The position numbers and the translations under genes were made by a program. This document shows positions 28,053 through 58,542 of a stretch of 64,000 bases of DNA, one piece after another (the stretch's first letter is position 1; every line of letters starts with the position of its first letter). The stretch is taken from NCBI RefSeq assembly GCF_002356295.1, contig NZ_AP018042.1, positions 3,008,361-3,072,360 on the forward strand, written 5' to 3'. Under the pieces are notes generated by a model, which worked only from the letters and a program-made list of their open reading frames with translations, did not search any database and was not told the origin of the DNA. The DNA comes from Labilibaculum antarcticum (GTDB lineage Bacteria > Bacteroidota > Bacteroidia > Bacteroidales > Marinifilaceae).

Positions 28053-30059
28053 ATGACTAGGTGTTTATTGCTGTTTTTATTGATGTTAGGGTTTTCTGGT
28101 ATGGGAGTGTCTGCTAAAGATCTACCCTTGATTTCTATTAGTGTTGATAATGATAATATCTTAAAAGATGGAGGTGAAGCTATAGTTACTGTAAGCTTAA
28201 GTAAAAAAAGTAATGGTAATAATGCTATAGTAAGCTTGAGTTATGAGACGAACGGTACAGGATCAATGAATTATGATTTTGAAATCGAACCTGCTGTTTA
28301 TTACAGGAAGTTTGATAATAATGAGACTAGTTTTTCTTTTAAAATTATTGGTGTTTATCAAGAATGGGGTTCCTCGAAAGTTGAGTTAAAAATAACTCTT
28401 TCTGGAATTGAGAATGCAACACCTTCAGGGCCAACATCATTATTGGTTGTAATTGCTGATGGTGCTGATGTTACGCCACCCGTTTTTCAAAATCCACAAG
28501 CAAATATTACGATCGATGCATTAGGAATCGAATGTGGAGAGATTGTAAATTACACCTCGCCTTCCGCGACAGATAATTTTTCTGCTTACACCGGAACTTT
28601 AACAGGTTTTTCCTATTTGGGAGAATTAGATTACCATACTTACTATTATTCCGACGGAATTGCATCTGCAACTGATGCAATGTTAGCGGCTGCGAATGTT
28701 GGAGGACATTTAGTAACTATTACCAGTCAGACTGAAAACGATTTTATTGATAATTTGGTTGGTGGAATTTGGATAGGGTTAAATGATGCGACAAATGAAG
28801 GAACATTTGCTTGGTCTAATGGAGAAGCTGTAAGCTATACCAATTGGAATGGTGCTGAACCTAATGATTATAGCACAGGAGAAGATTATACCGAAATGTA
28901 TACTACTGGCCTGTGGAATGATTTACCCGTGGGATCTACTCGTAGATATGTTGTGGAGTTTGAAGGTGCTTTAGTGACTCAAACTGTTGGTTTGCCTTCT
29001 GGTTCTTTGTTTCCGGTAGGAACAACAACGAATACTTTTCTTGCAACCGATAATGCTGGGAATACTGCGACCCATAGTTTTACTGTAACTGTTGCAGATG
29101 TTACGCCGCCTAAAATTTCAGCTTTACTAGCAGACTATTACGATGGACTGAATTTTGATACCTTTCAAGAAACCATAGCTGTTGATGAATTGAATTATTA
29201 TTGGGGCTCAGGAGCTCCTGAATCGACTCTGGTTGGAAGTGATTATTTCTCCATTCGATTTCAAGGAAGTGTTCAGGCTGTTGATGCAGGAACTTATACT
29301 TTTTATACGACCTCGGATGATGGAGTCCGCTTGTGGGTTGCCGGGTCACAGGTTGTTAATAATTGGACTGATCATGGGACTACAGTAAATTCAGGAGCGA
29401 TATCTTTATTGGCAGGACAAGTGGTACCAATTATTTTAGAGTATTATGAACGCACAGGTGGTGCTGTTATAAAATTAGAAATGAGTGGGCCAGGACTTGC
29501 GCGGCAGTTTGTGAAGAGCGATGGTTCTGGAGCGTGTCAGGATGTAACGGTGGATGTTAGCGCAACAGGCTCTTATGATCTTACGGTAGATGAGGTGGAT
29601 CCTAGCTATTCCGATGAATGTGGTATCGCTTCAAGAACGTTAAGTAAAACTAATTTTACATGTAATGATAGTGGAGATAATGCCGTGACTTTCACAGTAA
29701 CTGATGTGAACGGGAATTCTACATTCTGCGATATTAATGTGAAAGTTGTGGGAACACCAGATAATTCTTTAACGGTTACAGACGATACGCAATGTGAAGG
29801 CGTGGATGCAAGTGTAACGATTCTGGCTAGCGAAACTGATGTTGTGTACTCCTTATTTAATGGGACAACACAAATTGGAAGTTCTGTTACAGGAGGTGTA
29901 TCTACTCTCGTATTAACGATTCCCTCTTCAGTATTAAGCGTAGGCGATAATACAATTACTGTTCATGCAGCAAAGGGTGCTTGTGAATTAGATCTTCTGA
30001 ACAAGGCTGTGATACATATTGATCCTATTCCTTTGCCAATTGGGATTTATTTTGAATAA
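28053..30059 (+). CDS. Exported adhesin with C-type lectin and PA14 modules nested in HYR domains; PxPxGI tail
   Basis: With ATG 28053 this is 668 residues (a TTG 9 bp earlier is less likely). Order: signal peptide (about 1-22, ending VSA); Calx-beta-like sandwich (25-135); HYR first half; C-type lectin-like domain (about 187-304, WIGLNDATNEGTFAWSNGE and WNDLPVG); HYR second half (FPVGTTTNTFLATDNAGNT); another HYR start; PA14 domain (about 358-489, YTFYTTSDDGVRLWVAG); HYR end; C-terminal Ig-like domain (about 570-655). The last residues are IPLPIGIYFE. No T9SS C-terminal domain is present. Lectin and PA14 domains bind glycans in other adhesins; the ligand here is unknown. First gene of the surface locus. 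Confidence 0.88.
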   Translation: MTRCLLLFLLMLGFSGMGVSAKDLPLISISVDNDNILKDGGEAIVTVSLSKKSNGNNAIVSLSYETNGTGSMNYDFEIEPAVYYRKFDNNETSFSFKIIGVYQEWGSSKVELKITLSGIENATPSGPTSLLVVIADGADVTPPVFQNPQANITIDALGIECGEIVNYTSPSATDNFSAYTGTLTGFSYLGELDYHTYYYSDGIASATDAMLAAANVGGHLVTITSQTENDFIDNLVGGIWIGLNDATNEGTFAWSNGEAVSYTNWNGAEPNDYSTGEDYTEMYTTGLWNDLPVGSTRRYVVEFEGALVTQTVGLPSGSLFPVGTTTNTFLATDNAGNTATHSFTVTVADVTPPKISALLADYYDGLNFDTFQETIAVDELNYYWGSGAPESTLVGSDYFSIRFQGSVQAVDAGTYTFYTTSDDGVRLWVAGSQVVNNWTDHGTTVNSGAISLLAGQVVPIILEYYERTGGAVIKLEMSGPGLARQFVKSDGSGACQDVTVDVSATGSYDLTVDEVDPSYSDECGIASRTLSKTNFTCNDSGDNAVTFTVTDVNGNSTFCDINVKVVGTPDNSLTVTDDTQCEGVDASVTILASETDVVYSLFNGTTQIGSSVTGGVSTLVLTIPSSVLSVGDNTITVHAAKGACELDLLNKAVIHIDPIPLPIGIYFE

Positions 30060-30060
30060 A

Positions 30061-30358
30061 ATAATTCGCAATTTCTTTTGCTAAAAGCAATTCATTTTTT
30101 CCTGCCTCTTTTAAGGTCAGGTAAAATCTTCGGCACATCAAATCTTCTTGTAAGCCTTTTCTGATAGTAAGCATTCCATAATTTGCCGTTATGATATTCG
30201 TATCGGGATTTAAAGAATAGGAAGCTACTAAATGTTGATTGCAATTGGTAATCTCGAAGAGTTGATGAAGACTAATCTCTGAGTTTTTATTGAAATCCCA
30301 AAGCGTGCGGTCTAGATTGAAGAAAATGTGTTCGTATTTTAAGTTTGTTATATTTTAA
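30061..30358 (-). pseudogene. Truncated, decayed copy of the 5' end of the yjjG-type HAD gene
   Basis: Aligning by eye, 30061-30358 matches 27650-27945 (roughly the first 100 codons of the HAD gene) at most positions. Small indels, such as a lost stretch in the FSKED region near 30150, break the frame. The ATG is lost (TATATTTT in place of the start). The duplication continues through the gene's upstream region to about 30420. The remaining two-thirds of the gene are absent, replaced by the end of the preceding adhesin gene at 30059. Confidence 0.85.
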
Positions 30359-30403
30359 AAAAAAGTGTTTTTAGTTTTACAGAATAAAAGTAAACAAATG
30401 TGT

Positions 30404-30411
30404 TAGTTTTG
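30404..30411 (+). promoter_or_regulatory. Duplicated promoter box in front of the second surface gene
   Basis: TAGTTTTG matches TAnnTTTG exactly. It lies in a block (AGAATAAAAGTAAACAAATG and on) that is a copy of 27972-28010 upstream of the first surface gene, where the box reads TAGTTCTG (27995-28002). Both would drive the downstream adhesin gene 50-65 bp away. Confidence 0.5.
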
Positions 30412-30474
30412 CGTAATATGTCTTAGTCATTATCGATTTATTGTTTTTATTTTTTTTTACAAAGAGTAAATATT

Positions 30475-31395
30475 ATGAAGAAGCCCCTAATCTTTGTTCT
30501 GTTATTTTTAACATTCTCAACTGTTTGTTTTGGACAATATACTTCCATTGATAGTTATTCTGGCAGCTGGACAGATTCTGGATCCTGGTTGTCATCTATG
30601 CCACCATTGAATGGTGTAAGTGGAAATACAAGTATTTATGGCGAAATAAATGCTGGTGCTAATTTAAAATATAATTCAGGGACGTTGACAGTTAGAGATA
30701 CTCTAGTAGTTTACGGTGATCTTATCTTGGGGAATAATGCCGATTTGGTTTTAGGAAGTGGTGCTGTTTTAATTGTATTAGGTAGTGTTTCTGTTGCAAA
30801 TAAGGTTGATATTGAAGCAGGTGGGACATTTATTGTTCAAGGGGATCTGGCATTTTTAGGGAGTAGTAAGAACGGTAGTTTTACAAGTGATCAGGATCCC
30901 GCGCAAGTATATGTTGGGGGTAGCGTGTCGTTGCCAAGCGGTAAAGATCCATTTACAAATTATCCTGTTTTGGAATGTAATACAGGAGATCATACTAATT
31001 CTGATTGTAATTATGGATATATAGAAGATCTTGAAGGAAAGAATATTGAAGAGTATTATCAAGAGGTTCTGTGCGGTGTTGGTATAGATCCGGGTAGTAT
31101 TGGTAGTAATCAAACTGTTTGCATTGGGGATAATCCTTCAGAGATTGTTCAATTAACTGCAAGTACTGAGACTACCTATCAGTGGTTTTTGTCGATAGAC
31201 AGTACTGATTCTGATGTGCCGAATTGGACTGAAATAAGTGGAGCTACTCAGTTAAATTATACTCCAGGTGTATTGTCACAAACGACTTCGTATTATCGAC
31301 AAGTGCAAAAAGGGAATGGCTGTGTTGCAAATTCAAAAGCAGTAACGATTACAATTACACCAACTCCAAGCCCATTAGGGATTTTCTCCAAATAA
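30475..31395 (+). CDS. Exported beta-solenoid-like protein with Ig-like C-terminus; PxPxGI-type tail
   Basis: This is a 306-residue protein with a signal peptide of about 20 residues (ending CFGQ). Residues about 50-130 are short hydrophobic beta strands in a regular pattern (LTVRDTLVVYGDLILGNNADL, then GAVLIVLGSVSV, GGTFIVQGDLAF) that suggest a small right-handed beta helix. Residues about 205-295 form an Ig/PKD-like domain with one Cys pair (NQTVCIGDN ... KGNGCVANS). The end is TPTPSPLGIFSK. It is a paralogue of the 32322 gene, with a Rho-independent terminator 32 bp after the stop. No T9SS domain; binding function unknown. Confidence 0.8.
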   Translation: MKKPLIFVLLFLTFSTVCFGQYTSIDSYSGSWTDSGSWLSSMPPLNGVSGNTSIYGEINAGANLKYNSGTLTVRDTLVVYGDLILGNNADLVLGSGAVLIVLGSVSVANKVDIEAGGTFIVQGDLAFLGSSKNGSFTSDQDPAQVYVGGSVSLPSGKDPFTNYPVLECNTGDHTNSDCNYGYIEDLEGKNIEEYYQEVLCGVGIDPGSIGSNQTVCIGDNPSEIVQLTASTETTYQWFLSIDSTDSDVPNWTEISGATQLNYTPGVLSQTTSYYRQVQKGNGCVANSKAVTITITPTPSPLGIFSK

Positions 31396-31457: not shown

Positions 31458-31533
31458 GTGATTTGTTTGCAAACAAAAACAAGCTTGACAAGTTGCTGAC
31501 TTATACTGCCAGATGTATTCGTGTCCGTTCGTG

Positions 31534-31692
31534 GAGAATTATAGTATTACAATTCCGACAGCAGGATTTTCGATTGGAAATAATGTAATTAATTTCAAAG
31601 CAGTAAGTGGTTCATGTGAAGCAAATCTGACCAATTCTGCCACACTTGTAGTCAATCAAAACCCAACGGGCGTTGGGTTTTACCATGAGTAA
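31534..31692 (+). pseudogene. Orphan C-terminal fragment of a surface adhesin
   Basis: An open stretch encodes ENYSITIPTAGFSIGNNVIN, then FKAVSGSCEANL..., ending QNPTGVGFYHE at TAA 31690. It matches the last 50-60 residues of the 28053 protein (VSTLVLTIPSSVLSVGDNTI and the Cys in KGACELDL) and of the SprB-repeat protein. The upstream 31393-31534 is a degraded copy of the intergenic block found at 33126 and 41009. No start or signal peptide is linked to it, so it is the remnant of a lost adhesin gene. Confidence 0.75.
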
Positions 31693-32321: not shown

Positions 32322-33125
32322 ATGGCAAATTATTTTTTTAAAAGTATCTTATTCATTGTATGTTTATTGTTTAGCTTTTCTTTGCTTGCAAGAGAAATTA
32401 AACTCGGAGTTGAGGAAGTTCACGAGACCAGTTTTACATCAGATGAAAATATAATAGTTAATGGTACTTTAATTGTATTAGGTGACCTTGTTATGGGTGA
32501 GAAGGAAAGTTTAACAATTAATGAGGGAGGTATCGTAATTGTTACAGGGAATTTATTAATAGGGAAGAATGTTAGTGTGTCAGCTCTTGGTTATTTAATT
32601 GCGGAGAGTTTTACTTCTCCCGATAAGTGGGGAGGAAAATTTAAGGAAGGTGCAATAAGTAAAGTATTCATAAACGAAGCTTATGGAGGTGATAAACAGC
32701 ACATGCCTGTATTGCTTCCTGGAGGTCATTCTATAATTCCGGAATTAGAAGGTATTGATAAAGATGTTTGGGATTATTACCAGAAAGTAATTGGTGGTGT
32801 TACCGGGGGTACTATTGAGCTTGATGGCAGTTCGACTAGTTGTGCTGGGTCTTCTTTGCCTTCAATTGTAAATATGACTGTGGCTTGGCCTGCTGCTTTT
32901 AAGAAATATTCCTGGGAGTATTCTGTTGATAATAATAACTGGAACATTATTGAGGGCCAGGCTGATATTGAGTTAATATCCCTTGGTTTGGAACTAATGG
33001 ATGGAGCTTATTATTTTAGAAGGAAAGTTTCAAAAAAGAATGATGAGGAAGATTATATGTACAGTAATTATGTGGAAGTTACTGTTGTTCCATTACCTGC
33101 TCCAATAGGAATTTTTTTCAAATAA
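32322..33125 (+). CDS. Exported beta-solenoid-like protein with Ig-like C-terminus; PxPxGI tail
   Basis: This is a 267-residue protein with a signal peptide of about 22 residues (ending SLLAR). Residues about 45-90 repeat a solenoid-like pattern (NIIVNGTLIVLGDLVMG, then GGIVIVTGNLLIGKNVSV), very close to the 30475 paralogue (DTLVVYGDLILG). The rest is an Ig-like domain (about 170-255, with WEYSVDNNNWNIIEGQ). The end is VPLPAPIGIFFK. It keeps the same order as its paralogue but lacks the internal Cys pair near the end. It ends in front of the first copy of the 350-bp direct repeat. Function unknown. Confidence 0.78.
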   Translation: MANYFFKSILFIVCLLFSFSLLAREIKLGVEEVHETSFTSDENIIVNGTLIVLGDLVMGEKESLTINEGGIVIVTGNLLIGKNVSVSALGYLIAESFTSPDKWGGKFKEGAISKVFINEAYGGDKQHMPVLLPGGHSIIPELEGIDKDVWDYYQKVIGGVTGGTIELDGSSTSCAGSSLPSIVNMTVAWPAAFKKYSWEYSVDNNNWNIIEGQADIELISLGLELMDGAYYFRRKVSKKNDEEDYMYSNYVEVTVVPLPAPIGIFFK

Positions 33126-33950: not shown

Positions 33951-33985
33951 AGAATAAGTGCCAATTGCACATTAAAATCATCCCC

Positions 33986-36900
33986 TTGACGAAACATCTA
34001 CACCTAAAATTTTTCTTCCTATTCTTCTTTCTTTGTTCGCTGAGTGGTACTTTGTTGGGGCAGACAGCAAGTGTTTTACACCCAACCACTCCAACGAGTA
34101 ATGATGGAAGTATTACTATAAATTGGCCTGCTAATGGGGTAAAGTATGTTAAGATTAATGGAATTCAGAAGGCTAATAATGTCTTGAATTTTAACGGACT
34201 GGATGAGGGTGATTATGTGTTAGAATATTGGCGGAAAAGTCGCTCCGATTGGAATAAGGCTGGAGATGAGACTGTTACTCTTGTAGCAGCCCCGTATTGT
34301 TTAGCTAAAGCGACCAATCAGTATGAGTATATAAGTAGAGTACAAGTAGGTAGTATTGATAAATTCAGTGGTTGGTCTGGTTATTCTGATTATACATCCC
34401 TGTTAACAGATGTTAATATAGGAGTAGGATATTCAATAACTATTACGAATGGGTATTATTGGTCTGGAGATCAATATGGAATTTGGGTTGATTGGAATCA
34501 GGATGGAGATTTCAATGATAAAGATGAAACTATTTCTGCCTCCAGTGGCTCTGCAGTATTTATTAGAACAATAACTCCTCCATCTGGTGCTACAATAGGT
34601 AGTACAAGAATGAGGATAAGAATTAATGATGGTGCTGTAGATGCTTGCGGAGATTCATTTTGGGGTGAAGTGGAAGACTATACTTTAAATATTGTCTCTC
34701 CAGATTCCGGATCAGATCCATGTACTCCAGCTGTTGGCGCAACAGCTATTTGGAATGAGAATTTCAATAGTTTGCCAATAAAAGGAGTTGCTACTTTTGA
34801 TTATGGAGATCTTAAGAGAGATGAATATCCACTGTCTAAATCTGATTGGGGATTGGTTGGTAATAATCTATCTCCATATCAAATATCAGGTTCTTATGAA
34901 GGGGTGTGGTTGAGTGAGGCGATTCCAATTTCCAGTTATTCTGATATTAAAGTCTCTATGGATGTCGGTTCTTGGGCAATAAATGGGAATAGCTTAGAGG
35001 ATACCGGTGTTCAGGCTGATTATGTCCGGGTTTATTATATAGTAGGTGGAGTGGAGTATCAATTTGATACTAGTTGGGAGTTTCTAGGTGATATTTCATT
35101 AGGTTCAAAATCGTGCACTACAGTCCCTGATGGGGGAATGTTACAAATTAGGGTGGTTTTAATGAATACCTTTACGGATGAGCTTCAGTATATCGACAAT
35201 ATTAAAGTTACGGGTGTGCGTAAACCGCCTGAAATTAGTAGTATTACTTCTAGTGCCTGCGAGAAATCAAATGCTGAAATTACAATTGAAGGAAATTATT
35301 TAGATGGCGCAACGGAAGTTACAGTTGGAGGTAAAGCAGCAACAATAAAATCGAATACCACAGACGAAATAATTGTAATTCTCCCGGATGACGCAACAAC
35401 GGGTAAAATAACTGTCACTATAGGCGGAATATCTGTAACAAGTGACGGTGATCTTGTCATAAATCCTTTAGTTGGCGATGCTGGGATTATAGCAGGTGAT
35501 GATGTTGTTTTAAAAGGGCAAACAAGTGTGAGTTATAAGGTTTCTTCAATTACTAATTCAGATAGCTACGAGTGGTCGTATTCAGGAACTGGAGAAACTA
35601 TAAACAATAATGGTAACAATGAGATTACAATTGATTTTGCTGACGATGCTACCTCAGGAGACCTGACGGTTAGTGGAGTTAATTCATGTGGAAATGGTAA
35701 TTCTTCTGCATTATCAATTACTGTAAACTCGGGAACAACTGCAGCTCCTGAAATTACAGCAAGAGGAGATCAGTCAATTTGTGCTGATGATAATAAGCAA
35801 ATTTTTGTTGTTGAATCAATTATGGTTACGAGTGGAACTGCTTTGGTTTCAATGTCTGTGCAAATTTCAGGTGGCTATGTTTCAGGTGAAGATAAATTAG
35901 AGCTTTTTGCAGGTCCAGATCATATAGGTGATATAACTTCGAGTTGGGATGAAACTACAGGGATGCTTATATTAACCGGATCGGCTTCTACTACTGATGC
36001 TCAGTTTCAGAATGCAATAAAGTATGTTGAGTTTGTTAGTCTTACTAGTCCTCGCACAGAAGGTCCCCGGACTTTTTCAATAACCTTAGAGGATGCCAAT
36101 TTTCTTCCTGAGTCGGGCCATTTTTATCAATTTGTTTCGGAGCTGGATATAACATGGACAGACGCACGTGATGAGGCAGAGAAAAAAACTTATTATGGCC
36201 TCAAGGGCTATCTGGCAACATTAACATCTGAGGAAGAAGCTGTTTTCGCAGGTGCTAAAATAACTGGCTCTGGAACCATTGGTGCTGGGTGGATTGGTGC
36301 TAGTGATGCAGATGGAGACGAAGATGGTGAATGGAGATGGGTTACTGGTCCAGAAGGAAAAAAGGATGGTGGTAAAGGACTTCATTTTTGGCAGGGGCGT
36401 TCATCTAAAAATGGAGGTGTTCCTGTTAATGGTGAATATTCGAGATGGAACACGAATACTTATAAGTCGGAGCCTAACAATAGTAGTGATGAATATTATG
36501 CTCACATTACCGATCCAACTCATACTGAGAATGTAGAATGGGGTTGGAATGATTTAGATAATAGAGGAGGAAGTGGTCAGTATCAGCCCAAAGGTTATAT
36601 TGTTGAATATGGTGGGTTTACGACTGATCCAAAGCTTAGTATTTCTGCAAGTACTACGATAATGGTTGGAGATACTGAACTTCCGGTTATTGGCGGAATG
36701 CCAGCAGATATAATTATAACTAATTGCAATCAGGTGGTTAATTGGACAGAGCCAACTGCATTAGATAAATGTGGTGCAGTTACATTAACTAAAGATTATG
36801 ATCCAGGAAAGGCGTTCCCTTTTGGCGAAACCGTGGTTACCTATACGGCTACGAATGGTGCTGGTCGTGTTCCTGCAAGTTTTAAGGTGACAGTTCAGGA

Positions 36901-42460: not shown

Positions 42461-42536
42461 AAAAAATAGCCAAACCCTTTTTAACAATTCGCGTATAGAT
42501 ATTTATATTTCCGAAAAATAGAGGCCTTTTTAATTT
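42461..42536 (+). promoter_or_regulatory. Shared leader block, copy 2
   Basis: AAAAAATAGCCAAACCCTTT is followed by TTAACAATTCGCGTATAG and TATATTTCCGAAAAATAG, the counterpart of 33875-33950 and 46125-46200. TATATTTC sits where the -7 box would be. Confidence 0.6.
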
Positions 42537-42570
42537 GAATAAGTACTTGTTGTACATTAAAACCATACTC

Positions 42571-49119: not shown

Positions 49120-49806
49120 ATGAAAACGACGTTATTGAGATTTACAGGATTTATACTGTTGCTTTTTATTAGTTCTGTAGCTTTTGCTCAAGGACATACT
49201 AAAAATGTAGGGGATTCATATACTTATACTGTTACGGCCGATACTGGACCAGGAACAAATACCTATGAATGGACCATTGGAGGTACGGAGAATGATCAAT
49301 GGGAAGTTACTTCCGGATCGTTAACGAGTACAAGTGTTACTATTTTATGGTTGAAACCTGGTACTTATAACGTGGAGTTTAAACAAGATCAGGAGCATGG
49401 GGGTGTTACATGTTCAACAATTAAGTCTGGTGATGTGATTGTTTCTAATAATTTCGATGCAACTATAGCAAATGGAACATCTGTTTGTGGAGGAACTACT
49501 GGAAGTACTAATTTTACATTTAGCGTGTCAAAATCTGGAGGTAATCCAAATTGGAGTTTTCATTATACAACAGATGGATTAGGTGTTGGAGATGAGGTTG
49601 CAGATGATATAAGTGTGGTAGGAGTAGATAGTTATAGTTTGGTGATACCGGTACTTAATGTTACAGATGGAACTGATAAAACATTTAATGTTGTACTAAC
49701 TCTTATTAAAGATTCCGCTGGCAATGTAGATACTGATAATTCTAATGATGAAACAGCTACAGTAACTCTATATGGAGTGCCTAATACAGGTGGTATTAAT
49801 TGGTAA
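49120..49806 (+). CDS. Small two-domain exported subunit 1
   Basis: This 228-residue protein has a signal peptide ending FAQ (mature N-terminal Gln). Domain 1 (about 25-112) is PKD/Ig-like: SYTYTVTADTG, YEWTIGG, ILWLKPGTYNVEF, then a Cys before GDVIV. Domain 2 (about 113-218) starts NNFDATIANGTSVCG and has all-beta strands. The end is LYGVPNTGGINW, closest among the small proteins to the PxPxGI tails of the large ones. It lies 26 bp after the SprB-repeat gene, first of seven paralogues in a row. There is no enzyme motif and no T9SS domain. A structural subunit role is inferred. Confidence 0.82.
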   Translation: MKTTLLRFTGFILLLFISSVAFAQGHTKNVGDSYTYTVTADTGPGTNTYEWTIGGTENDQWEVTSGSLTSTSVTILWLKPGTYNVEFKQDQEHGGVTCSTIKSGDVIVSNNFDATIANGTSVCGGTTGSTNFTFSVSKSGGNPNWSFHYTTDGLGVGDEVADDISVVGVDSYSLVIPVLNVTDGTDKTFNVVLTLIKDSAGNVDTDNSNDETATVTLYGVPNTGGINW

Positions 49807-49841: not shown

Positions 49842-50702
49842 ATGAAAACTTTAGGAAAATTAATAATTGTGCTTGTTGGTTTGTTTGTTTCTGTTCAGGC
49901 AATGGCTCAGAGTGGGACAAATCCTTATGAAGGATCGACACATACCTACACTATAGACAAAGGGATGACAAATTCCGATTTAGCTTGGAGTGTTACGAAT
50001 GGTGCAGCTGGAGATTTTGACTTTATTGATGGATCAGGAAGTGTTACGACAGCTCCTCAGACAGGTACATCGGTAAATATTCGATGGAATGTAGCAAAGG
50101 CTACAGCATATAATTTACAGGTTACTGAAACTCGTAATGCAGCTTCGGGATTTACAGGTTGTCCTGTAACTCGTCAAATTCCAGTTACAGTTATTGCAAA
50201 TGCTTTTGATGTATATGCGGATGTAATTACAGCTACTGAAGCTTGTGCAAGCGTAACCAATCCAGTAGTTGATAACGATACAGCAGGAGATGGTACAGAT
50301 CTTGGGAATAATTCTGATGATGTATTTGGCCTGACAAGTAGAGAGTTCTTAGTAACAGCTGTTGGCGCAACAGGTGACTGGGATTTCACATACACATTGA
50401 CACATAAGAGTGCTGGTGTTGATGAGAGTATTGGTGATTTGGCTGTGAAAATTGGAACTACAGATATATCTGCCACTGGACAAACTGTAAGTGTAGGTTC
50501 TGGTATAACAACAAATACAATTACCGTTTCTTATACTACAAATGCTGATAGACAAGATGGAGATTTTGATTTTGTGTTGACAATTACAGGAGCTACAGAT
50601 TCTTTAGGTACTTCTGATGGTGATGTAACAGTAGGTAAGACTAACGGTGCAACATATACTGTTTATGCAGTTCCTGCAACTACAGGCATAACAACGGACT
50701 AA
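49842..50702 (+). CDS. Small two-domain exported subunit 2
   Basis: This 286-residue protein has a signal peptide ending AMAQ. Domain 1 starts SGTNPYEGSTHTYTIDKGMT with the family W (LAWSVTNG), VNIRWNVAKATAYNLQVTET and a Cys in GCPVTRQIPVTV. Domain 2 starts NAFDVYADVITATEACASVT. The end is VYAVPATTGITTD. It is the longest of the seven because domain 2 is larger. It is followed by a perfect 11-bp intercistronic hairpin before subunit 3. Same family and inferred role as subunit 1. Confidence 0.82.
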   Translation: MKTLGKLIIVLVGLFVSVQAMAQSGTNPYEGSTHTYTIDKGMTNSDLAWSVTNGAAGDFDFIDGSGSVTTAPQTGTSVNIRWNVAKATAYNLQVTETRNAASGFTGCPVTRQIPVTVIANAFDVYADVITATEACASVTNPVVDNDTAGDGTDLGNNSDDVFGLTSREFLVTAVGATGDWDFTYTLTHKSAGVDESIGDLAVKIGTTDISATGQTVSVGSGITTNTITVSYTTNADRQDGDFDFVLTITGATDSLGTSDGDVTVGKTNGATYTVYAVPATTGITTD

Positions 50703-50710
50703 TAATATTT

Positions 50711-50740: not shown

Positions 50741-50758
50741 TCACTAAAATTCAAAACT

Positions 50759-51544
50759 ATGAAAGCTACAAAGATTTTCATCTTAGCTTGTTTACTTATG
50801 ATTGGAGGACAGGCTTTCTCACAAAATGGTACAAATCCATTTGTAAATTCAACACACACTTATACAGTTACTCCTGGAGATGCTGGAAATACTCTTGTTT
50901 GGTCTGTTTTAATTGCTGATGGTCTAACAGCTGCTGATGCTGGTGATTTTGATATAGTCACTAATGGCAATGCTACTGTTGATATCAAATGGAATAAAGC
51001 TAACGATGCTACTATTGTTAACTATGTTGTGCAATTATCTGAAGAATCTGCAAATGGTTGTTTCACTTTACGTCAGTTTCCTGTAACAGTTCAAGCTAAT
51101 ACTTTCTATTTAGCTGCAAGTGAAGATGGGAATGAGTGTCACGATGAAGATGGGAATATAATAGCTTTAGGAGCTTCTTTAGCTACAACTGTTGATTTTA
51201 CTGTAACCATAGATAATGCGACCTTCCTTTTAAATCTTACAACATGGGAATTTGATTTAGCTTTTGGTTTAGTAGGAACTTATTCTATTAATGAAGTGAA
51301 AGTAGGCGGAAATATTGTAACCGCTCCATATAATAGTATTTCTATTGATGGTGGTGTTGAAAATGTAACTGTATCTGTAAAAGTAACAGGTAATGTTCAA
51401 ACTGCAGAAACAGTGACAATGACAGTGTCGAATGGTAAAGCGATAAAAGGTACCACTGTAAATCTAGATAATGATAGTGGTGATAGAGTTCAAGCTTTAA
51501 CCATTAATGCATTACCAGGTACTACGGAAATTACAACTGATTAA
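50759..51544 (+). CDS. Small two-domain exported subunit 3
   Basis: This 261-residue protein has a signal peptide ending AFSQ. The mature start NGTNPFVNSTHTYTVTPGDA is nearly the same as in subunit 2. Family landmarks are LVWSVLIADG, VDIKWNKAND, VVQLSEESANGCF, FPVTVQANTFYL at the domain junction, and a second Cys in GNECHDEDG. The end is INALPGTTEITTD. It lies 24 bp upstream of subunit 4. A run of the same text in another frame at 50710-50919 is a shadow. Confidence 0.82.
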   Translation: MKATKIFILACLLMIGGQAFSQNGTNPFVNSTHTYTVTPGDAGNTLVWSVLIADGLTAADAGDFDIVTNGNATVDIKWNKANDATIVNYVVQLSEESANGCFTLRQFPVTVQANTFYLAASEDGNECHDEDGNIIALGASLATTVDFTVTIDNATFLLNLTTWEFDLAFGLVGTYSINEVKVGGNIVTAPYNSISIDGGVENVTVSVKVTGNVQTAETVTMTVSNGKAIKGTTVNLDNDSGDRVQALTINALPGTTEITTD

Positions 51545-51568
51545 TAATAAATCCTAAAAAATAACATC

Positions 51569-52471
51569 ATGAAAAAAATTAGAAATTTATGTATTGTACT
51601 TATAGCTCTTATTGGGCTATCTAGTACCGTTTATGCACAAGGGACTGGAACTGCTCCTTATGTTGGTTCAAATCATCCTTATTCTGTCAGTAATGATACT
51701 GACAATACTTATGAATGGTTTGTTACTGCAAACTTTGGAGATCTTGTAGGTAATGTATCTGCAGATGTAGCTACTCTTTCAGCAACTACAGGGAGCTCAA
51801 TTGATATTACTTGGGGTACTGCATTGGTTGGAACAACTTATTTTGTACACGTTATAGAAACGTCTACTATTACAACTTGTTCAAATCATAAGGTGATGGC
51901 CGTAACTCCTATTAATGGATTTAGTCTTGCTATTGCAGCTGTTTCTTCTGGCGATGTTATATTAACTGGCGATGATCTTAAAGATTGTGCTCCAAATGCT
52001 ATTGTTTCTGGTTATACAGTAGGTACTCAGACTTTTGATTACAACTATGGTGTAAATACTTTTTATTATAAAATTACAGCATCGGGTATTGGAACTAACG
52101 GTTGGAGTCCTCAGTTGACTATTGCTGCAACTGATACAGATTCTGATGTAGATAAAACTACTGATACTAAAGTGACTTACACAGCTGAGTGGGCAACTTC
52201 AATTGGTGGTACTTATACTGGTGGTTTAACTGTTGATGGTCTTATGAATGACATTACTGTTGATCCTAGTAATCCTTCTATTTGGGTCAAATTAACTGTT
52301 GATAATGCTGAAGGACTAGCTGATAATCAAATCTTAATTACATTATTAGACGATGCTAATACATCAGTAGATGAGTTTGGTAATGCGGTTAATATAATTA
52401 CTGGTACTAATGATGTGAGTACTCAAACTGTTAATGCTAGACCTACAGTAACTGGTATCACAACAGACTAA
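51569..52471 (+). CDS. Small two-domain exported subunit 4
   Basis: This 300-residue protein has a signal peptide ending VYAQ. Domain 1: GTAPYVGSNHPYSVSNDTDN, YEWFVTANFG, IDITWGTALVGTTYFVHVIE, with a Cys in TTCSNHK. Domain 2 starts NGFSLAIAAVSSGD with a Cys in LKDCAPNA. The end is VNARPTVTGITTD. It shares the ITTD terminus with subunits 2 and 3, so these three form the closest subgroup. Inferred structural subunit. Confidence 0.82.
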   Translation: MKKIRNLCIVLIALIGLSSTVYAQGTGTAPYVGSNHPYSVSNDTDNTYEWFVTANFGDLVGNVSADVATLSATTGSSIDITWGTALVGTTYFVHVIETSTITTCSNHKVMAVTPINGFSLAIAAVSSGDVILTGDDLKDCAPNAIVSGYTVGTQTFDYNYGVNTFYYKITASGIGTNGWSPQLTIAATDTDSDVDKTTDTKVTYTAEWATSIGGTYTGGLTVDGLMNDITVDPSNPSIWVKLTVDNAEGLADNQILITLLDDANTSVDEFGNAVNIITGTNDVSTQTVNARPTVTGITTD

Positions 52472-52499
52472 TTTCAATTAATAGTTAAATAAGAACTAT

Positions 52500-53195
52500 T
52501 TGAAAACTCAAATACATAAAGGGATTTTATTCATGATTTTCATGATCCTAGCCGTGGCAAATGCCACGGCTCAGGATACTTTTATGCTATTTGAAAAAGC
52601 CTCTCACGTATATACTGTCATTGAAACAGATGGTAATATTTATAGCTGGTCGGTATTTGAAATGTCCGATTTGAATAATGAAATATTAGATACTGATATC
52701 GTTGAATTCATTAGTGGAAAAGATACATATCAGACTGAAATAAGGTGGAAACAAGCAGGAGAGTACGTGCTTGTTATAGAAGAGGTTGGCTCATGCCAAA
52801 ATTTAAAAGCCAATAGGGTTATTGTCGTATCTACTGCCACAATAGCCTTTAAAGATTTAACATCAGACGATTGTGCTGACTTAGATCCACAATTTGCTAC
52901 AGAACTGGTAGCCATATACGATTCAGGTACCGAGTTGCCCGAATCACAATATCCGATTACAGTGATCTATCGTTTAGATGATGCTGTTGATCGAACTGCA
53001 ATTGTAAATGCAGATAAAATGCTCCAAGTAGAGGGCGTTGAAGAAAATGTAATTACGGAAACAATCAATCATATAACCATAATAAGTGCAACCAATAAGT
53101 ACGGAGGTACGTTAAAAGTGGTAACTGATCAAGAAGTTCATACTAGAACAATATTTGCTTTACCAGCAAAACCTATTATAACAATAATAAACTAA
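52500..53195 (+). CDS. Small two-domain exported subunit 5 (TTG start)
   Basis: This is a 231-residue protein. The start is TTG at 52500 (MKTQIHKGILFMIFMILAVA), giving a signal peptide ending ATAQ; no in-frame ATG gives a comparable signal. Domain 1: SHVYTVIETDGNIYSWSVFE, TEIRWKQAGEYVLVIEEVGS, Cys in GSCQNLK. Domain 2 starts TATIAFKDLTSDDCADL. The end is FALPAKPIITIIN. It is more charged than subunits 1-4. The next gene is 11 bp downstream. Confidence 0.8.
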   Translation: MKTQIHKGILFMIFMILAVANATAQDTFMLFEKASHVYTVIETDGNIYSWSVFEMSDLNNEILDTDIVEFISGKDTYQTEIRWKQAGEYVLVIEEVGSCQNLKANRVIVVSTATIAFKDLTSDDCADLDPQFATELVAIYDSGTELPESQYPITVIYRLDDAVDRTAIVNADKMLQVEGVEENVITETINHITIISATNKYGGTLKVVTDQEVHTRTIFALPAKPIITIIN

Positions 53196-53206
53196 AAAAA
53201 CTACAT

Positions 53207-53953
53207 ATGAAAAATTTACAACGACTCTTTTTGCTTGCTATTTTTAGCTTTTGCATTCTTGGAAATACGTTTGCTCAATTAACTCCTGATGTGAATCAAC
53301 CAGGAGTTGTTATTGGTGCAATTCATCAATATGATGTTGACGAGCATGCAGGGAGTACTTATACTTGGTCTGTAGTTGATGTAGACGATAATGCTATTCT
53401 TGCATCAGCAACTACTTATCAATTTACTGATGAATCGATTGCTTTTAGCAGAACTATAAAATGGAATATGGATGGTACTTATTATTTAAAAGCCATAGAA
53501 ACCATAACAGCAACCTCTTGTAGTAACTTTTTTGTTATTCAAGTTGATGTTATTGGAGATTCTTATTCTGTACAATTCGTGTCTACAGTAACTCCTTCTT
53601 CAAATAGTATTTATTGTGCTGATGATACTGCATTAGGCTCTCCTGAAATCACCTTAGATGTTAAATTAGGTGCTACGCTACCTGCGGATACATATTATCC
53701 AATGAACGTATTTTACTCTTTAGATGGTGGAACTACTGAATTGAGTGCTTCAATTTCTAATACAAATATGTTTAATTTAGGTGCAGTTGATATAGGATCG
53801 GACAAAACGGCTCCTAATACAACAGCAGTTACTGTTACATTGTTAAGGATTGTTGATAAAAATGGAGTGATTTTTACACCAGTTGCTGTTGATAAGGAAT
53901 TTGGTATTACAATTAATCCAATTCCAGGAAAACCAACAATTACAATTTTATAG
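53207..53953 (+). CDS. Small two-domain exported subunit 6
   Basis: This 248-residue protein has a signal peptide ending TFAQ. Domain 1: IHQYDVDEHAGSTYTWSVVD, RTIKWNMDGTYYLKAIETIT, Cys in TSCSNFF. Domain 2 starts DSYSVQFVSTVTPSSNSIYC. The end is INPIPGKPTITIL. It resembles subunit 5 in its hydrophobic terminus. The next gene starts 18 bp after the stop. Inferred structural subunit; no catalytic motif. Confidence 0.82.
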   Translation: MKNLQRLFLLAIFSFCILGNTFAQLTPDVNQPGVVIGAIHQYDVDEHAGSTYTWSVVDVDDNAILASATTYQFTDESIAFSRTIKWNMDGTYYLKAIETITATSCSNFFVIQVDVIGDSYSVQFVSTVTPSSNSIYCADDTALGSPEITLDVKLGATLPADTYYPMNVFYSLDGGTTELSASISNTNMFNLGAVDIGSDKTAPNTTAVTVTLLRIVDKNGVIFTPVAVDKEFGITINPIPGKPTITIL

Positions 53954-53971
53954 TATAATAAGATTTAAACT

Positions 53972-54685
53972 ATGAAAAGAATACTCACATTACTAATAAT
54001 CACCATCGGATTTGTTGGGCTTGCAAAAGCCCAACAGACCCAATCGGTTACCTATGGGGTTTCTAAATCGTATACGGCTAATCCTGCAGCCGGGACTACT
54101 GTTGACCACTATGTGTGGCAATTGGTCGATGCTTCAGATGTTTCAGTAAGAGATTTGTCTACCGAAACAGGTGCCACGGTGAGTATTACTTGGGATCTGA
54201 CGATAGGGACAACTTATCGATTAAAATCTCAGGTTGTTGATGATAATAATTGTAGCAGTGCATTTGTTTATGTCGATGTAACGATTGCTGGAGATGCCTC
54301 AATGATGTTTGCAACTGCAACTGATAATATTGAAGACTGTTCTCCTCTTTTGGGAGATACTCCAACACCAAGAAATTTCGAAGTAGTTATTACAGGTGGT
54401 GTAGCACCATTTGATATTACCTACAAGTTGACCGATAAAGATGGTGTTGAGTCTACATTAATAGAGACATTTGGTACTGCAGGTGATCCAACTCCTTTAA
54501 CAGGCATTCTCTCAATTTCTGATTTTGAGAATACGACTGGAGCGAATCAAAGCATAAGTATTGAATTGATTAGTGGAGTAACTGCTGATGGTTCTGCAGT
54601 AACTGTTGATTCTGATGTGACTAATAACAATAGAAGTGTGACCATTTACTCAAAACCTGTTATCACCAATCTTACTTTGAACTAA
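53972..54685 (+). CDS. Small two-domain exported subunit 7
   Basis: This 237-residue protein has a signal peptide ending AKAQ. Domain 1: SKSYTANPAAGTTVDHYVWQ, VSITWDLTIGTTYRLKSQVV, Cys in NNCSSAF. Domain 2 starts ASMMFATATDNIEDCSP and includes GGVAPFDITYKLTDKDG. The end is IYSKPVITNLTLN. It is next to the T9SS-sorted protein, whose N-terminal module has the same order, so it may be the subunit contacting the base (inference from gene order only). Confidence 0.82.
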   Translation: MKRILTLLIITIGFVGLAKAQQTQSVTYGVSKSYTANPAAGTTVDHYVWQLVDASDVSVRDLSTETGATVSITWDLTIGTTYRLKSQVVDDNNCSSAFVYVDVTIAGDASMMFATATDNIEDCSPLLGDTPTPRNFEVVITGGVAPFDITYKLTDKDGVESTLIETFGTAGDPTPLTGILSISDFENTTGANQSISIELISGVTADGSAVTVDSDVTNNNRSVTIYSKPVITNLTLN

Positions 54686-54702: not shown

Positions 54703-57261
54703 ATGTTGAGAACCTTACTACATAAAACACTGCTTACTGCAATGGCCATCCTTTTGGGAGGATGGGCTGTTGTGGCACAGCAGTATGTGGTTAAGGGAAC
54801 AACACTTAATTTTAAGGTGGATGAAGTTACCGGTTATGAATATCATTGGTCAGTAACGCATACAACAAGTGGTGCGGTAGCTTATCTAACGTCAAAAACA
54901 TTTGAGTCCGGCGATTACGTATTCGATAATGAAGGTGATTATCAAGTAAAAGTATATCCAGAGGATTTAGGAACACATTGTTTTGGTGATCCTTTAACTA
55001 CGATGGTTATTGTTGATGGCGCAGCTCCAACAGCTGAGTTCGACGATTTGGAAGTTCCCTATGTTTGTTCTGCAAATAATGGCGGAGATGCAAATGGGAA
55101 GGTGAGTTTAACAGTTAATTATACTGGTCCTAAACCATGGACATTTAAAATTTCAGTGGATCGTGCACCTGCGGTTATGCCAGTAGGAGCAGAAGAATTA
55201 TATACCAATACTTTTGAGTTTGAATTGGAAATTCCGAATACAAGTGGTAAAAGACATCGAGCAGAGATCTTATTGGTTGAAGCGAAGACTTTATCAGGAA
55301 TAGGAGTAACCGAAGACCTTGCCAATCAAACTTTGGAGGTTGATGTAATGGCCTTGCCAAATACTGTTTTTGGAGATTACGAACCTGTAATTCAGGCAGG
55401 AACATTTCAATCTTACACTGCAAGCATTGAGAAAAATGAAAATTACAAACTTTTCATTCCTGATGGAGCATCAGTTTTAAATGAAAAAACAAAGAAACTA
55501 AGCGATAAGTACCATAGTGAATTAAGTTTTGATGTTCAATGGGGAAATACGCCGGGAGATTATCAAATAAAATTAATAGAACGTACTGCTTTTGATTGTG
55601 CAGGAGATACGATTTATGCAGATGTTACGGTAGTTGAATCTTTCGTAGTTAGTTTGGGTGGTGATATTAGTATCTGTCAAGGAGAGAGTGCAACTCTAAG
55701 TCCGACTATCGACTTTGATGGGACTTATACTTACCTATGGTCAGATGGATCAAACGGCTCTTCATTATCCGTAACTGAGACAGGAACGTATTCTGTTACA
55801 GCAACTGATTCCGGTACTGGTAAATCATCATCGTCAACAGCGAATGTAACTGTATTAACAGCTCCGATTGTTGATTTGGGAGCCGATTATGAATTGGCCG
55901 ATGCAGAAACGAAAGTATTGGATGCAGGTAATCCTGGTTTAAGCTATTCTTGGTCTACTGGGGAGATTGGCCAGACAATAAGCGTGAATACTAGCAATAC
56001 CTACAGTGTTGATGTGACTAATGAAAATGGCTGTGTAGGAACAGATGAAATTATTATAAGCAGCACAAGTGATGTATTTGCCATTAATTTAGGCGAAGAC
56101 AAAGATATTTGTGATGGTGAAGAGTTGATCTTGAATCCAAATCCAAGTATATCACAGAAATATGCTTACTTATGGTCCAATGGCGCAGGAACATCCACTT
56201 TAGCTGTAACTAAATCGGGTACATATTCGGTAACTGTAAGAGATGCTGCCGGTAATGAAAAATCAGATGAGATTGAAGTAATTGTGCATGCCTTACCAAT
56301 TGTTGATTTAGGGGATGACATTACATTGTTCGATGGAGAAACTACGACTTTAGATGCAGGTAATCCCGGTGCGGCTTACGATTGGAGTACTTTAGAAACG
56401 ACACAAAAAATTACGGTAAGTGAGGAAAACGTTTATTCTGTTCAGGTGACTGATGTGAGTGGATGTAAAGGGGCTGGAGATGTTAGTGTTTTCACCCGTC
56501 AGTTTACTGTTGATTTAGGTGCTGATCCAGCTCCAATTTGTATGGGGGAAATTATCGACGATTTGACTCCAACAATTAAGGGAACAATCAGTGCTGATAT
56601 AAGTTATGCATGGAAAACTCCAGTGGGAGAAGACCTTAATGAGTCAATTTCAGTAAATGTTGGAGGAGAGTATTGTGTTTCTGTGACTGACAAAAATAGT
56701 GGAATTACAGAGACCGATTGTGTGTTTATTACTGTTAATCCTTCTCCTGTTGTTGATTTGGGTGAAGACCGTATTCTACAGGTTGGGGACGAAATAGAGC
56801 TGGATGCGGAGAATGAGGGTTCTAACTACAAGTGGGATGGTCCAATAAATAGTATTAAGCCTAATTCTATATCTCAGAAGGTTACTGTTGATCAGATTGG
56901 AGAATATAGCGTTTTGGTAACTAGTGAGATCGGATGTGTCGCCAGCGATACGCTTACTATTAGTTCGGGTAGTCAGTATTTTGTTGATTTCCCATCGGCA
57001 TTTTCACCTAATGAGGATGGTAAAAATGATGAGCTCAAGCTCGTTGGTGATATTGATATGATTGATAATACGAAGAAAATGAGTTTGATTATCTATAATC
57101 GTTTAGGTCATAAAGTTTTCAACGTCGATCGTAATATTCCTTGGGATGGAAGATTTAAAGGGCGTAAATTGGATATGGATGTTTATGTGTATTTCTTAAA
57201 TGTTACATTTAAAGATGGTAGTTCAATGGTAAAACAAGGAAATGTTACACTATTGTACTAA
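54703..57261 (+). CDS. T9SS type B-sorted surface protein with subunit-like N-terminal module
   Basis: This 852-residue protein has a signal peptide ending VVAQ. Residues 27-215 copy the architecture of the small subunits (LNFKVDEVTGYEYHWSVTHT; Cys in GTHCFG; second domain with YVCSANNGG). Residues 214-228 (VDVMALPNTVFGDYE) correspond to the subunit tails but here link to a further PKD-like domain (230-312). Then come six PKD-like repeats (about 315-755; VDLG.D and YSV.VT signatures). Residues about 762-852 are a type B (gliding-associated, CHU_C) sorting domain: FPSAFSPNEDGKNDE, IYNRLGHKVF, WDGRFKGRKLDMDVYVY, KQGNVTLLY. This is the only T9SS signal in the locus, so it is the likely outer-membrane base. 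Confidence 0.93.
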   Translation: MLRTLLHKTLLTAMAILLGGWAVVAQQYVVKGTTLNFKVDEVTGYEYHWSVTHTTSGAVAYLTSKTFESGDYVFDNEGDYQVKVYPEDLGTHCFGDPLTTMVIVDGAAPTAEFDDLEVPYVCSANNGGDANGKVSLTVNYTGPKPWTFKISVDRAPAVMPVGAEELYTNTFEFELEIPNTSGKRHRAEILLVEAKTLSGIGVTEDLANQTLEVDVMALPNTVFGDYEPVIQAGTFQSYTASIEKNENYKLFIPDGASVLNEKTKKLSDKYHSELSFDVQWGNTPGDYQIKLIERTAFDCAGDTIYADVTVVESFVVSLGGDISICQGESATLSPTIDFDGTYTYLWSDGSNGSSLSVTETGTYSVTATDSGTGKSSSSTANVTVLTAPIVDLGADYELADAETKVLDAGNPGLSYSWSTGEIGQTISVNTSNTYSVDVTNENGCVGTDEIIISSTSDVFAINLGEDKDICDGEELILNPNPSISQKYAYLWSNGAGTSTLAVTKSGTYSVTVRDAAGNEKSDEIEVIVHALPIVDLGDDITLFDGETTTLDAGNPGAAYDWSTLETTQKITVSEENVYSVQVTDVSGCKGAGDVSVFTRQFTVDLGADPAPICMGEIIDDLTPTIKGTISADISYAWKTPVGEDLNESISVNVGGEYCVSVTDKNSGITETDCVFITVNPSPVVDLGEDRILQVGDEIELDAENEGSNYKWDGPINSIKPNSISQKVTVDQIGEYSVLVTSEIGCVASDTLTISSGSQYFVDFPSAFSPNEDGKNDELKLVGDIDMIDNTKKMSLIIYNRLGHKVFNVDRNIPWDGRFKGRKLDMDVYVYFLNVTFKDGSSMVKQGNVTLLY

Positions 57262-57368
57262 TATTGTTGATGAATAAAATGATTTATTACTGTTAAGTTT
57301 CATCTTATTAATTATATTTATGCCGAATAATTTATAGAAAAAGTAAATGTGAAAATAAATAGTTAAGC

Positions 57369-57401
57369 ATGGGTAATAGGCAATTATTACCCATTTTTAT
57401 A
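57369..57401 (+). terminator. Terminator of the subunit/anchor operon
   Basis: A 10-bp perfect stem (ATGGGTAATA / TATTACCCAT) with a 6-nt loop is followed by TTTTATATTTTT, 107 bp after the anchor stop codon. Confidence 0.85.
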
Positions 57402-57407
57402 TTTTTG
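57400..57407 (+). promoter_or_regulatory. -7 box of the PorP/SprF gene
   Basis: TATTTTTG, an exact TAnnTTTG match, starts within the terminator tail and lies 67 bp before the PorP/SprF ATG. The gene therefore can be expressed separately from the operon upstream. Confidence 0.5.
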
Positions 57408-57474
57408 CATAAGGGTTTTTGTTTTGCTGCATGAAAATTATTGCTAATCAGCTGAAAAACCGGTAAAATTGGAT

Positions 57475-58542
57475 ATGAGGAAGAGTTTAATTGTTTTACT
57501 GCTGATATCGTTATTCGGAGTCTTTAAAGTCTCCGCTCAGCGTGTGCATTCTTCTCAATTCTATTCTATTCCATTATTGTTAAATCCTGCTCTTACTGGT
57601 AATTCTGATTATAACCTTCGTGGAGGGATGAATTATCGAAATCAATGGAACAGTGTAACCACCCCCTTCGTTTCTCAATCGGTATTTGTAGATGGTAAAT
57701 TGTCGACTCAACTGTTGAGTTCATCCTGGCTTGGTATTGGAGGAATGATCTTTAATGACAAAGCTGGAGATGGTGGATTAAAAACTACGCAGGTCATGTT
57801 TGCCGGATCTATAAATAAAAGTCTGAATGCTGGTAATACCTTGTTCTTACATATGGGTCTTGGTTTAGAACTTGTCAATAAATCTGTTGATTTTAGTAAA
57901 TTAACTTTTGGAGAACAGTGGGAGAATGGCATATATAATCCTTCAGGTGGAAGTGGAGAAGTTTATGAGTCTCAATCTCTGTTTTATACCGATTTCTCTG
58001 CTGGTTCAATGGTTACCTATTTTAGAGGGAAGTCAAAATATTTCATGGGAGTTGCAGTTAGTCACATCAATCAGCCAAGGGAATCTTTTTATGGCGAGGA
58101 TAATGTTATAAATAACCTTAAAAGACGATTTGCCTGGCATGGCGGTGTAGAGTCAAGATTATCTTCAAAATTGTATGTGAAGCCTGAATTAATGTTTACA
58201 ACAGAGAAAAGTGCAAACGAATGGATTGCCGGAGCTAATTTTATGATGTTGTCTGGAGAAAAAGGAACAATACTGCATTACGGTTTGTGGTATCGTTTTA
58301 CTCAGGATATTATTCCCACATTTGGATACGAGAAAAATCGAATGAAACTGATGATTAGCTACGATATTAATGTCTCTGATTTACAGGTAGCTTCTTCGAG
58401 TAGGGGAGGTCTGGAAATTTCACTTACCTACAATTATAATTATTCAAATCCAAGAGAAATCCGTAAGTTGAAACGTCGTCAGAAAGTTAAAAAATTGGGC
58501 GATAAAGCAATCTCTTGTCCTAAATTCTCACACGAAGACTAA
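57475..58542 (+). CDS. PorP/SprF-family type IX secretion outer-membrane protein
   Basis: From ATG 57475 (MRKSLIVLLLISLFGVFKVS) this is 355 residues; a TTG 6 bp earlier is possible. A signal peptide ends VSAQ. The mature start RVHSSQFYSIPLLLNPALTG is the PorP/SprF hallmark, followed by GMNYRNQWNSVTTPFVSQSV and alternating beta strands of a roughly 14-stranded outer-membrane barrel (SWLGIGGMIFNDKAGDGGLK, IGVAVSHINQP-like and SYDINVSDL segments). Family members sit next to, and are needed for secretion or surface retention of, type B-sorted proteins, which matches the 54703 neighbour. The C-terminal 40 residues are basic (REIRKLKRRQKVKKLG). Confidence 0.94.
   Translation: MRKSLIVLLLISLFGVFKVSAQRVHSSQFYSIPLLLNPALTGNSDYNLRGGMNYRNQWNSVTTPFVSQSVFVDGKLSTQLLSSSWLGIGGMIFNDKAGDGGLKTTQVMFAGSINKSLNAGNTLFLHMGLGLELVNKSVDFSKLTFGEQWENGIYNPSGGSGEVYESQSLFYTDFSAGSMVTYFRGKSKYFMGVAVSHINQPRESFYGEDNVINNLKRRFAWHGGVESRLSSKLYVKPELMFTTEKSANEWIAGANFMMLSGEKGTILHYGLWYRFTQDIIPTFGYEKNRMKLMISYDINVSDLQVASSSRGGLEISLTYNYNYSNPREIRKLKRRQKVKKLGDKAISCPKFSHED

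Follow-up and report, generated by a model that had tools for sequence, protein, structure and literature searches.

Proteins carrying a type B C-terminal domain (CTD) for the type IX secretion system (T9SS) rely for export on cognate PorP/SprF shuttles, to which they can remain bound (PMC12618676, PMC9143113). A gene cluster in a 64,000-nucleotide stretch of the Labilibaculum antarcticum genome resembles two such pairs, SprB-SprF of Flavobacterium johnsoniae and PG1035-PorP of Porphyromonas gingivalis, in that a type B base adjoins PorP/SprF, SprA is encoded in the genome and SprB repeats are present (PMC9143113, PMC12618676). In those pairs the adhesins bear their own CTD, whereas the thirteen exported partners of the base described here bear none; this includes the SprB-repeat protein encoded from position 46232, which as a SprB/SprF gliding adhesin would carry one. 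The whole stretch, hereafter the window, covers positions 3008361-3072360 of the 5.72 Mb genome, and positions below are counted within it. Between 28053 and 58542 its plus strand encodes thirteen exported proteins that lack a T9SS sorting domain, followed by a single type B-sorted protein (54703) and a PorP/SprF protein. We propose, with moderate confidence, that this cluster encodes one heteromeric adhesive fibre of fixed subunit order, in which C-terminal tails would dock on the next subunit and a T9SS-sorted base would be held by PorP.

Three other kinds of surface structure invite comparison. Chaperone-usher pili (type 1, P) are heteromeric fibres of fixed order with an adhesive tip, built by strand complementation such as is proposed here; their donor strand is N-terminal, while the tail described below is C-terminal. 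The Type V pili (Fim/Mfa) of Bacteroidales use a C-terminal donor strand, have tip, stalk and anchor subunits, and are built of lipoprotein fimbrillins activated by a protease; the signals of this cluster, in contrast, have no evident lipobox and its base is T9SS-sorted. None of the 15 exported cluster proteins matches an usher or chaperone family or, in Pfam, a fimbrillin domain, and identity with either kind of pilus was rejected on tested features of this sort. A crude pattern search, in place of a trained predictor, flagged no lipobox in the window proteins. The giant tandem-array surface proteins of Bacteroidota share Ig-like and PKD domain types and P-x-P linkers with the cluster, but each is one polypeptide, whereas here there are many, with the tail lengthened by an I-x-hydrophobic motif. 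The locus is real and conserved, and it is unusual: its product would in outline operate as donor-strand fibres do, yet it belongs to none of the tested pilus families, and in a limited open-licence literature (titles and abstract openings, among the matches listed) no multi-protein fibre on a single T9SS-sorted base was found. If the proposal is true, the T9SS would export and anchor multi-subunit organelles and not just single polypeptides, most subunits could do without a separate export signal, and their order would be encoded in short tails readable from sequence. It could also explain Bacteroidales proteins that lack a sorting domain beside type B/PorP genes.

Organisation of the cluster

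The features of the cluster are as follows; every listed tail runs to the stop codon, apart from the internal segment of the base.

28053..30059, plus strand: tip 1, 668 residues, with C-type lectin, HYR and PA14 domains; tail DPIPLPIGIYFE (domain scan, tail reading)
30475..31395, plus strand: tip 2, 306 residues, with one Ig_7 domain; tail TPTPSPLGIFSK (domain scan, tail reading)
31504..31692, plus strand: remnant of the 3' end of another tip, with the same tail type, NQNPTGVGFYHE
32322..33125, plus strand: tip 3, 267 residues, with a sub-cut-off G8 match only; tail VPLPAPIGIFFK
33965..41008, plus strand: tip 4, 2347 residues, with GEVED, PKD_6, F5/8C, HYR (six stretches) and two ice-binding domains; tail NPKPHPIGIFFD
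42535..45942, plus strand: tip 5, 1135 residues, with CUB, Ig_7, LamG3 and HYR domains; tail QKKPNPIGIFGE
46232..49093, plus strand: adapter, 953 residues, with an N-terminal D1-like domain (candidate acceptor of the tip tails) and SprB repeats; tail VEHKPNPSGINF
49120..49806, plus strand: small subunit S1; tail LYGVPNTGGINW
49842..50702, plus strand: small subunit S2; tail YAVPATTGITTD
50759..51544, plus strand: small subunit S3; tail NALPGTTEITTD
51569..52471, plus strand: small subunit S4; tail NARPTVTGITTD
52500..53195, plus strand: small subunit S5; tail ALPAKPIITIIN
53207..53953, plus strand: small subunit S6 (v-type); tail NPIPGKPTITIL
53972..54685, plus strand: small subunit S7; base-facing tail YSKPVITNLTLN
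54703..57261, plus strand: base, 852 residues, with a D1-D2 module (about 26-216), ALPNTVFGDYEP in cis (217-228), further domains and a type B T9SS CTD at about 761-850
57469..58542, plus strand: PorP/SprF, candidate cognate carrier and anchor, with a single cysteine in its C-terminal tail (ISCPKFSHED) (profile match)

The order of five tips, adapter, seven small proteins, base and PorP/SprF agrees, coordinates included, with the original prediction, made from the letters of the window. Its SprB-repeat protein was recovered, repeats being detected in 46232, and its seven small paralogues (49120-54685) do form one family, together with the N-terminus of 54703. Its claim that 54703 alone has a T9SS domain held, as none of the 13 other exported proteins matches a type A or B sorting domain at E<=0.01 (Pfam, NCBIfam). 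Other parts needed amendment: the run of exported plus-strand proteins, described as about 30 kb of consecutive genes, has the expected coordinates and strand but is interrupted by a 162-residue open reading frame (ORF) without a signal peptide (41369-41857); ligand-binding domains were found in 28053, 33965 and 42535, while 30475 has one Ig_7 and 32322 the weak G8 match; and the label "unsorted", correct as to sorting domains, overlooks a C-terminal tail common to all thirteen. Signal peptides were assigned by eye and with a crude hydrophobicity script, not a trained predictor. Intergenic gaps from adapter to base are 11-56 bases, operon-like; those between tips are 415-1526 bases, and 289 bases lie ahead of the adapter. 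A promoter scan gave 49 sites against a mean of 49.0 in shuffled sequence, and thus no excess.

The small proteins and the base are joined by a shared module. The base opens with two domains paralogous to S1-S7, and continues in cis into a D1-like domain, with ALPNTVFGDYEP between. A profile of the small proteins has eight matches in this genome, all at the locus; a ninth, elsewhere, reaches only E=0.48. None of the seven small proteins matched Pfam or NCBIfam at E<=0.01, and the profile found no PDB sequence at that threshold, hence no family name. The adapter N-terminus aligns with D1 (hhalign 96.9%, E 1.4e-10), a figure that stands without a control run, and Ig-like profiles may match one another generally. 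The adapter varies in its middle, which holds SprB repeats in the window and, as judged by eye, HYR-like repeats in one relative (G007; G-numbers denote the genomes of relatives used in the comparison).

The C-terminal tails

In all thirteen proteins without a sorting domain, the last residues before the stop codon form a short tail that is led by proline and has hydrophobic residues at alternate positions: PxPxGI[FY]xE-like in the tips, HKPNPSGINF in the adapter, and forms such as YAVPATTGITTD and YSKPVITNLTLN in the small subunits. The domains that precede it, where recognised, are of differing kinds (HYR, Ig_7, SprB). Among 30 tips from 12 genomes, the window included and several of the tips being mutual orthologues, G-[IVL]-[FY] falls within the last nine residues in every case and a proline stands two residues ahead of that glycine in 29, despite differing domains; a tip of G001 outside this set ends PIGIFFE. 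Over 86 different trans tails, kept only if they extend at least 8 residues from a proline, the share of hydrophobic residues after the last proline is 0.86 at +5 and 0.63 at +7, the corresponding share after the other prolines in these proteins being 0.31.

In the proposed mechanism, each subunit except the base would present its tail of about ten residues, a proline followed by alternating hydrophobics, to D1, the Ig/PKD-like domain that comes first in the next subunit, where it would dock, probably as an added beta-strand. The chain would run from the tips to the adapter (46232), then through S1 to S7 to the base (54703). Since one tail is common to several tips, these are probably alternative heads for the single adapter acceptor rather than a stack of five. 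The base, sole carrier of a type B CTD, would leave through the T9SS and be retained by its PorP/SprF, and the other subunits would reach the surface attached to it.

Covariation of the tail with the next gene

Tails were compared over 138 links from 22 genomes, the window included. The chain analysis omitted G009, which has another gene order, and the last link of G072, where the base reading frame is interrupted; the regression set omitted G028 and G006 as near-duplicates. The compared pairs share genomes and so are not independent. Tails tend to change along with the next gene. Where a subunit's own second domain (D2) is alike, mean tail similarity is 0.77 if the next D1 is also alike (187 pairs) and 0.33 if it is not (123 pairs); with unrelated own D2 the corresponding values are 0.455 (61 pairs) and 0.081 (8317 pairs). 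With another cut, subunits alike in own D2 and next D1 kept the tail in 119 of 161 pairs and changed it in 19, while those with a different next D1 kept it in 25 of 114 and changed it in 80. A regression on 105 small subunits gave its largest weight to the next D1 (0.365), ahead of own D1 (0.207), the previous tail (0.177), own D2 (0.144), previous D2 (-0.049) and next D2 (-0.116). Within groups of alike own bodies (182 pairs), the correlation of tail with next D1 is 0.369, a value reached in 2 of 2000 shuffles (null mean 0.096); 27 pairs in these groups with a different next D1 have a tail similarity of 0.35, although their own D2 is the most alike (0.68).

Individual swaps show the same tendency most clearly. 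Between G008 and G004, of one genus, a subunit is identical for about 60 residues ahead of the tail and then ends in FALPAKPIITVKN where the next gene is v and in NKKPKISIINLN where it is a2; G008 against G002 is a like case. An independent swap in another genus separates G072 from G026, 95% identical over the corresponding stretch until EKPIITVEN (next v) in one and TVSDIEY (next p) in the other. Gene v occurs in G008, in G072 and, as S6, in the window; the three are mutual best matches at 37-57% identity, and a near-identical tail precedes all of them, while p is a separate family. The G024 locus is one small subunit shorter than those of the other genomes in its genus, and the subunit now facing the base ends KPVISGTIIVN, nearer to the base-facing KPTISGTITLN than to the KPVITAIELN of its G034 orthologue. 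Recombination tracts starting near the gene end could give such swaps neutrally, but breakpoints that fall at the edge of the tail twice, in separate genera, favour selection for a matched tail and acceptor.

Conservation among relatives

The named relatives recovered with the base protein are Labilibaculum and two Marinifilum, which places the host in their family, Marinifilaceae. With the L. antarcticum genome counted throughout, the module profile matches 27 of 59 genomes at E<=0.001; within the family it matches 26 of 56 genomes and 9 of 17 genera at E<=1e-6, and within the order 63 of 393 genomes and 46 of 207 genera at E<=1e-8, the last a count of modules, some partial and weak, rather than of loci, with just six candidates scored per genome. 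Loci were read in 22 family relatives, leaving out G005, G060 and the single weak match of G032. Small subunits followed by the base were found in 21 of the 22, some cut by contig ends; the exception, G009, has a small subunit, base and PorP first, with further tailed subunits downstream, and its base passes the cut-off for CHU_C (35.6 against 27) and falls below that for TIGR04131 (26.4 against 35). PorP directly follows the base in the window and in 19 of the 22 relatives, G009 among them; in G061, G071 and G073 the stretch of DNA read ends before that point. Where the locus is complete, 4 to 7 distinct small subunits occur, each as a single copy and in an order that is similar between genomes, and tips lie upstream of the adapter wherever the DNA reaches, except in G006, where a tip is fused to it, and G019. 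Because the small-protein profile matches this genome at the locus only and the order is kept in relatives, the cluster is not a chance assembly. The original prediction had staked itself on recurrence of the gene order, and that order recurs; its further proposal of tip, stalk and base in gene order, each bound directly or in series to the sorted one, is partly supported: a series fits best, and surface location, complex formation and T9SS dependence of the unsorted proteins are predicted features.

Outside the family, 12 stretches from 11 genomes were read. Small subunit(s), a type B base and PorP are consecutive in G387, G230, G173 and G390; in G092 subunits accompany a type B base to which no PorP adjoins; and tailed subunits were seen in the stretches of G370, G355, G039, G417, G413 and G321. 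Two fusions bear on how the pieces connect. In G019 two small modules share one ORF of 453 residues, and the first tail segment runs directly into the second D1. In G006 a CUB tip is fused to the adapter, the D1 of the adapter is lost and there is no tip-type tail at the joint; the sole P-x-G-L-Y match of the fusion also occurs inside the G007 adapter. No separate tip ORF lies between the fused protein and the HAD gene of G006, a statement confined to that interval. A fusion without D1 and without tip tail is what a pairing of tip tail with adapter acceptor would lead one to expect.

Predicted export and anchoring of the base

The base is an ordinary type B substrate with a PorP: its CTD scores 43.4 bits with TIGR04131 (cut-off 35) and 51.6 bits with CHU_C (cut-off 27), the PorP/SprF match of the adjoining gene 57469 scores 179.8 bits, and the genome encodes the T9SS translocon protein SprA (2790.9 bits). 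Passage of the thirteen CTD-less proteins through the outer membrane by riding on the base would be the simplest idea. In F. johnsoniae, a Cys-X-Cys in the C-terminal tail of SprF is disulfide-bonded to GldK and is required for sustained movement (PMC12635249). That Cys-X-Cys is absent from the C-tail of the window PorP, which has one cysteine only, at 58516-58518. All 9 of the family members examined have a C-tail cysteine, against 0 of 4 from outside the family, and CPKF also ends two other PorPs of this genome (eight of nine PorP loci covered). Coupling of PorP to the track is possible on the strength of this residue.

A wider proposal is put forward only tentatively, being rather doubtful as a whole: that the locus represents a new and widespread Bacteroidales surface fibre, an address-coded chain in which the C-terminal strand of every subunit would select the one after it, and which would be pre-assembled in the periplasm, be pulled folded through the T9SS by one sorted base, carry exchangeable tip cassettes and, in this family, maybe couple, through the conserved PorP C-tail cysteine, to the moving PorK/GldK track.

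Structure prediction addressed the fold and the proposed docking, the latter at low confidence. A model of the base N-terminus consists of tandem beta domains (mean predicted local distance difference test score, pLDDT, 77; predicted template modelling score 0.56), and Foldseek returned Ig-type and similar tandem arrays at low template modelling scores among the best 50 of 1802 matches. With no PDB profile match, naming a family from so generic a fold was abandoned. In a read-through (tethered) S6-S7 dimer, the TITI of the S6 tail forms a strand and the free S7 tail does not, at low confidence and with partner strands not visible.

Evidence against a chain and alternative readings

Several observations weigh against the proposed fibre. 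The coupling of tail to next gene is not strict, since 25 of 114 pairs retain the tail despite a different next D1; eight of these 25 come from comparing the G072 adapter with eight relatives, and in some the next genes belong to one family (v, p) with diverged D1. Simple correlations of the tail do not favour the next gene (own D1 0.537, next D1 0.524, own D2 0.495, next D2 0.438, previous tail 0.414), and in groups with alike own bodies the values for own D1 (0.453) and own D2 (0.416) both lie above that for next D1. The raw own-body correlations, as strong as the next-gene ones, lower confidence in the chain. The tail AVPATTGITTD faces two subunit types, and many unlike tails (for example G014/G007) occur among 99 unrelated-body pairs with alike next D1, of which 30 were shown. 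Since tail and next D1 adjoin in the DNA, joint transfer of the two by linked recombination could look like coupling. G019, whose adapter does begin with a D1, has no tip within about 25 kb upstream and fits the proposal less well. In the model of the base, the in-cis tail is mostly not strand (block pLDDT 55), and the S6-S7 dimer has a mean pLDDT of 62 and of only 45-55 at the tail. The likeness of tails to the in-cis linkers of tandem Ig domains is partial only, and surface location and subunit contact are predictions.

Three other readings were considered, each improbable in our judgement. The tails might link a complex that is not one-to-one with gene order, for example homopolymers of some small subunits, or a stack in which tip binds tip; we regard this as unlikely. 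The tails of S2 to S4 in the window are indeed alike (PATTGITTD, PGTTEITTD, PTVTGITTD), and the 25 pairs that keep a tail before a different D1 would suit it, but complete loci with single copies of distinct small subunits in similar order, and the preference for the next D1 in the regression, argue against it.

Alternatively, the cluster might consist of independent secreted or periplasmic PKD/Ig adhesins multiplied by duplication, with tails that are functionless linkers of a split giant protein and move with the next gene by linked recombination. In relatives, the linkers within tandem Ig arrays have P-x-P and the hydrophobic residue after it in common with the tails (for example PKPVVTNLSSYEICSG), and the correlation of a tail with its own body is as strong as with the next gene. 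Against this, the hydrophobics that the tails have at +5 and +7 are missing from 40 such linkers; AVPATTGITTD is identical across ten genomes over bodies merely 33-42% identical to those of the window; and the order of small subunits and base is kept in 21 of 22 relatives. The idea that the tail is the exact A-strand of tandem Ig domains was likewise supported in part only, and we give the split-giant explanation a small share of belief.

That the tail is instead a sorting or retention signal for a secretion factor, each protein being exported singly with no chain, would account for a short conserved motif at the stop codon of otherwise unrelated proteins in a phylum that uses C-terminal export signals, but seems improbable given tails that vary by position and switch with the next gene in near-identical subunits, that form one class in tips and several in small subunits, and given the absence of a tip-type tail at the joint of the G006 tip-adapter fusion.

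Candidate tip cassettes and neighbouring sequence

The tips of the proposed fibre look like exchangeable heads with a constant signal peptide and docking tail, to judge from the pattern of their DNA: tips 32322 and 33965 have 3' ends in common, tail and spacer included (89% over 300 nucleotides), tips 33965 and 42535 have 5' ends in common (80% over 141 nucleotides), and tip content varies among relatives (nine tips scanned). Within tip 4, the two ice-binding-like domains (38047-38971 and 39430-40378) are encoded by DNA stretches 79-87% identical, an internal duplication.

The 162-residue ORF among the tips (41369-41857) has no Pfam or NCBIfam match; ORFs resembling it, by eye, occur in G012, G071 and G001, and a remnant lies at about 33488-33655 of the window. 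Two minus-strand genes flank the cluster, one of the HAD family and one that we take, from its sequence, to be RsmI-like. Part of the HAD gene (27244-28041) recurs in decayed form between tips 1 and 2, at 30051-30427; the spacing of the two copies is about 2408, a hint that duplication has occurred in the tip region. Behind PorP, at 58623-59122, overlapping low-complexity ORFs rich in Phe, Leu, Ser and Pro are probably a simple-repeat stretch rather than genes.

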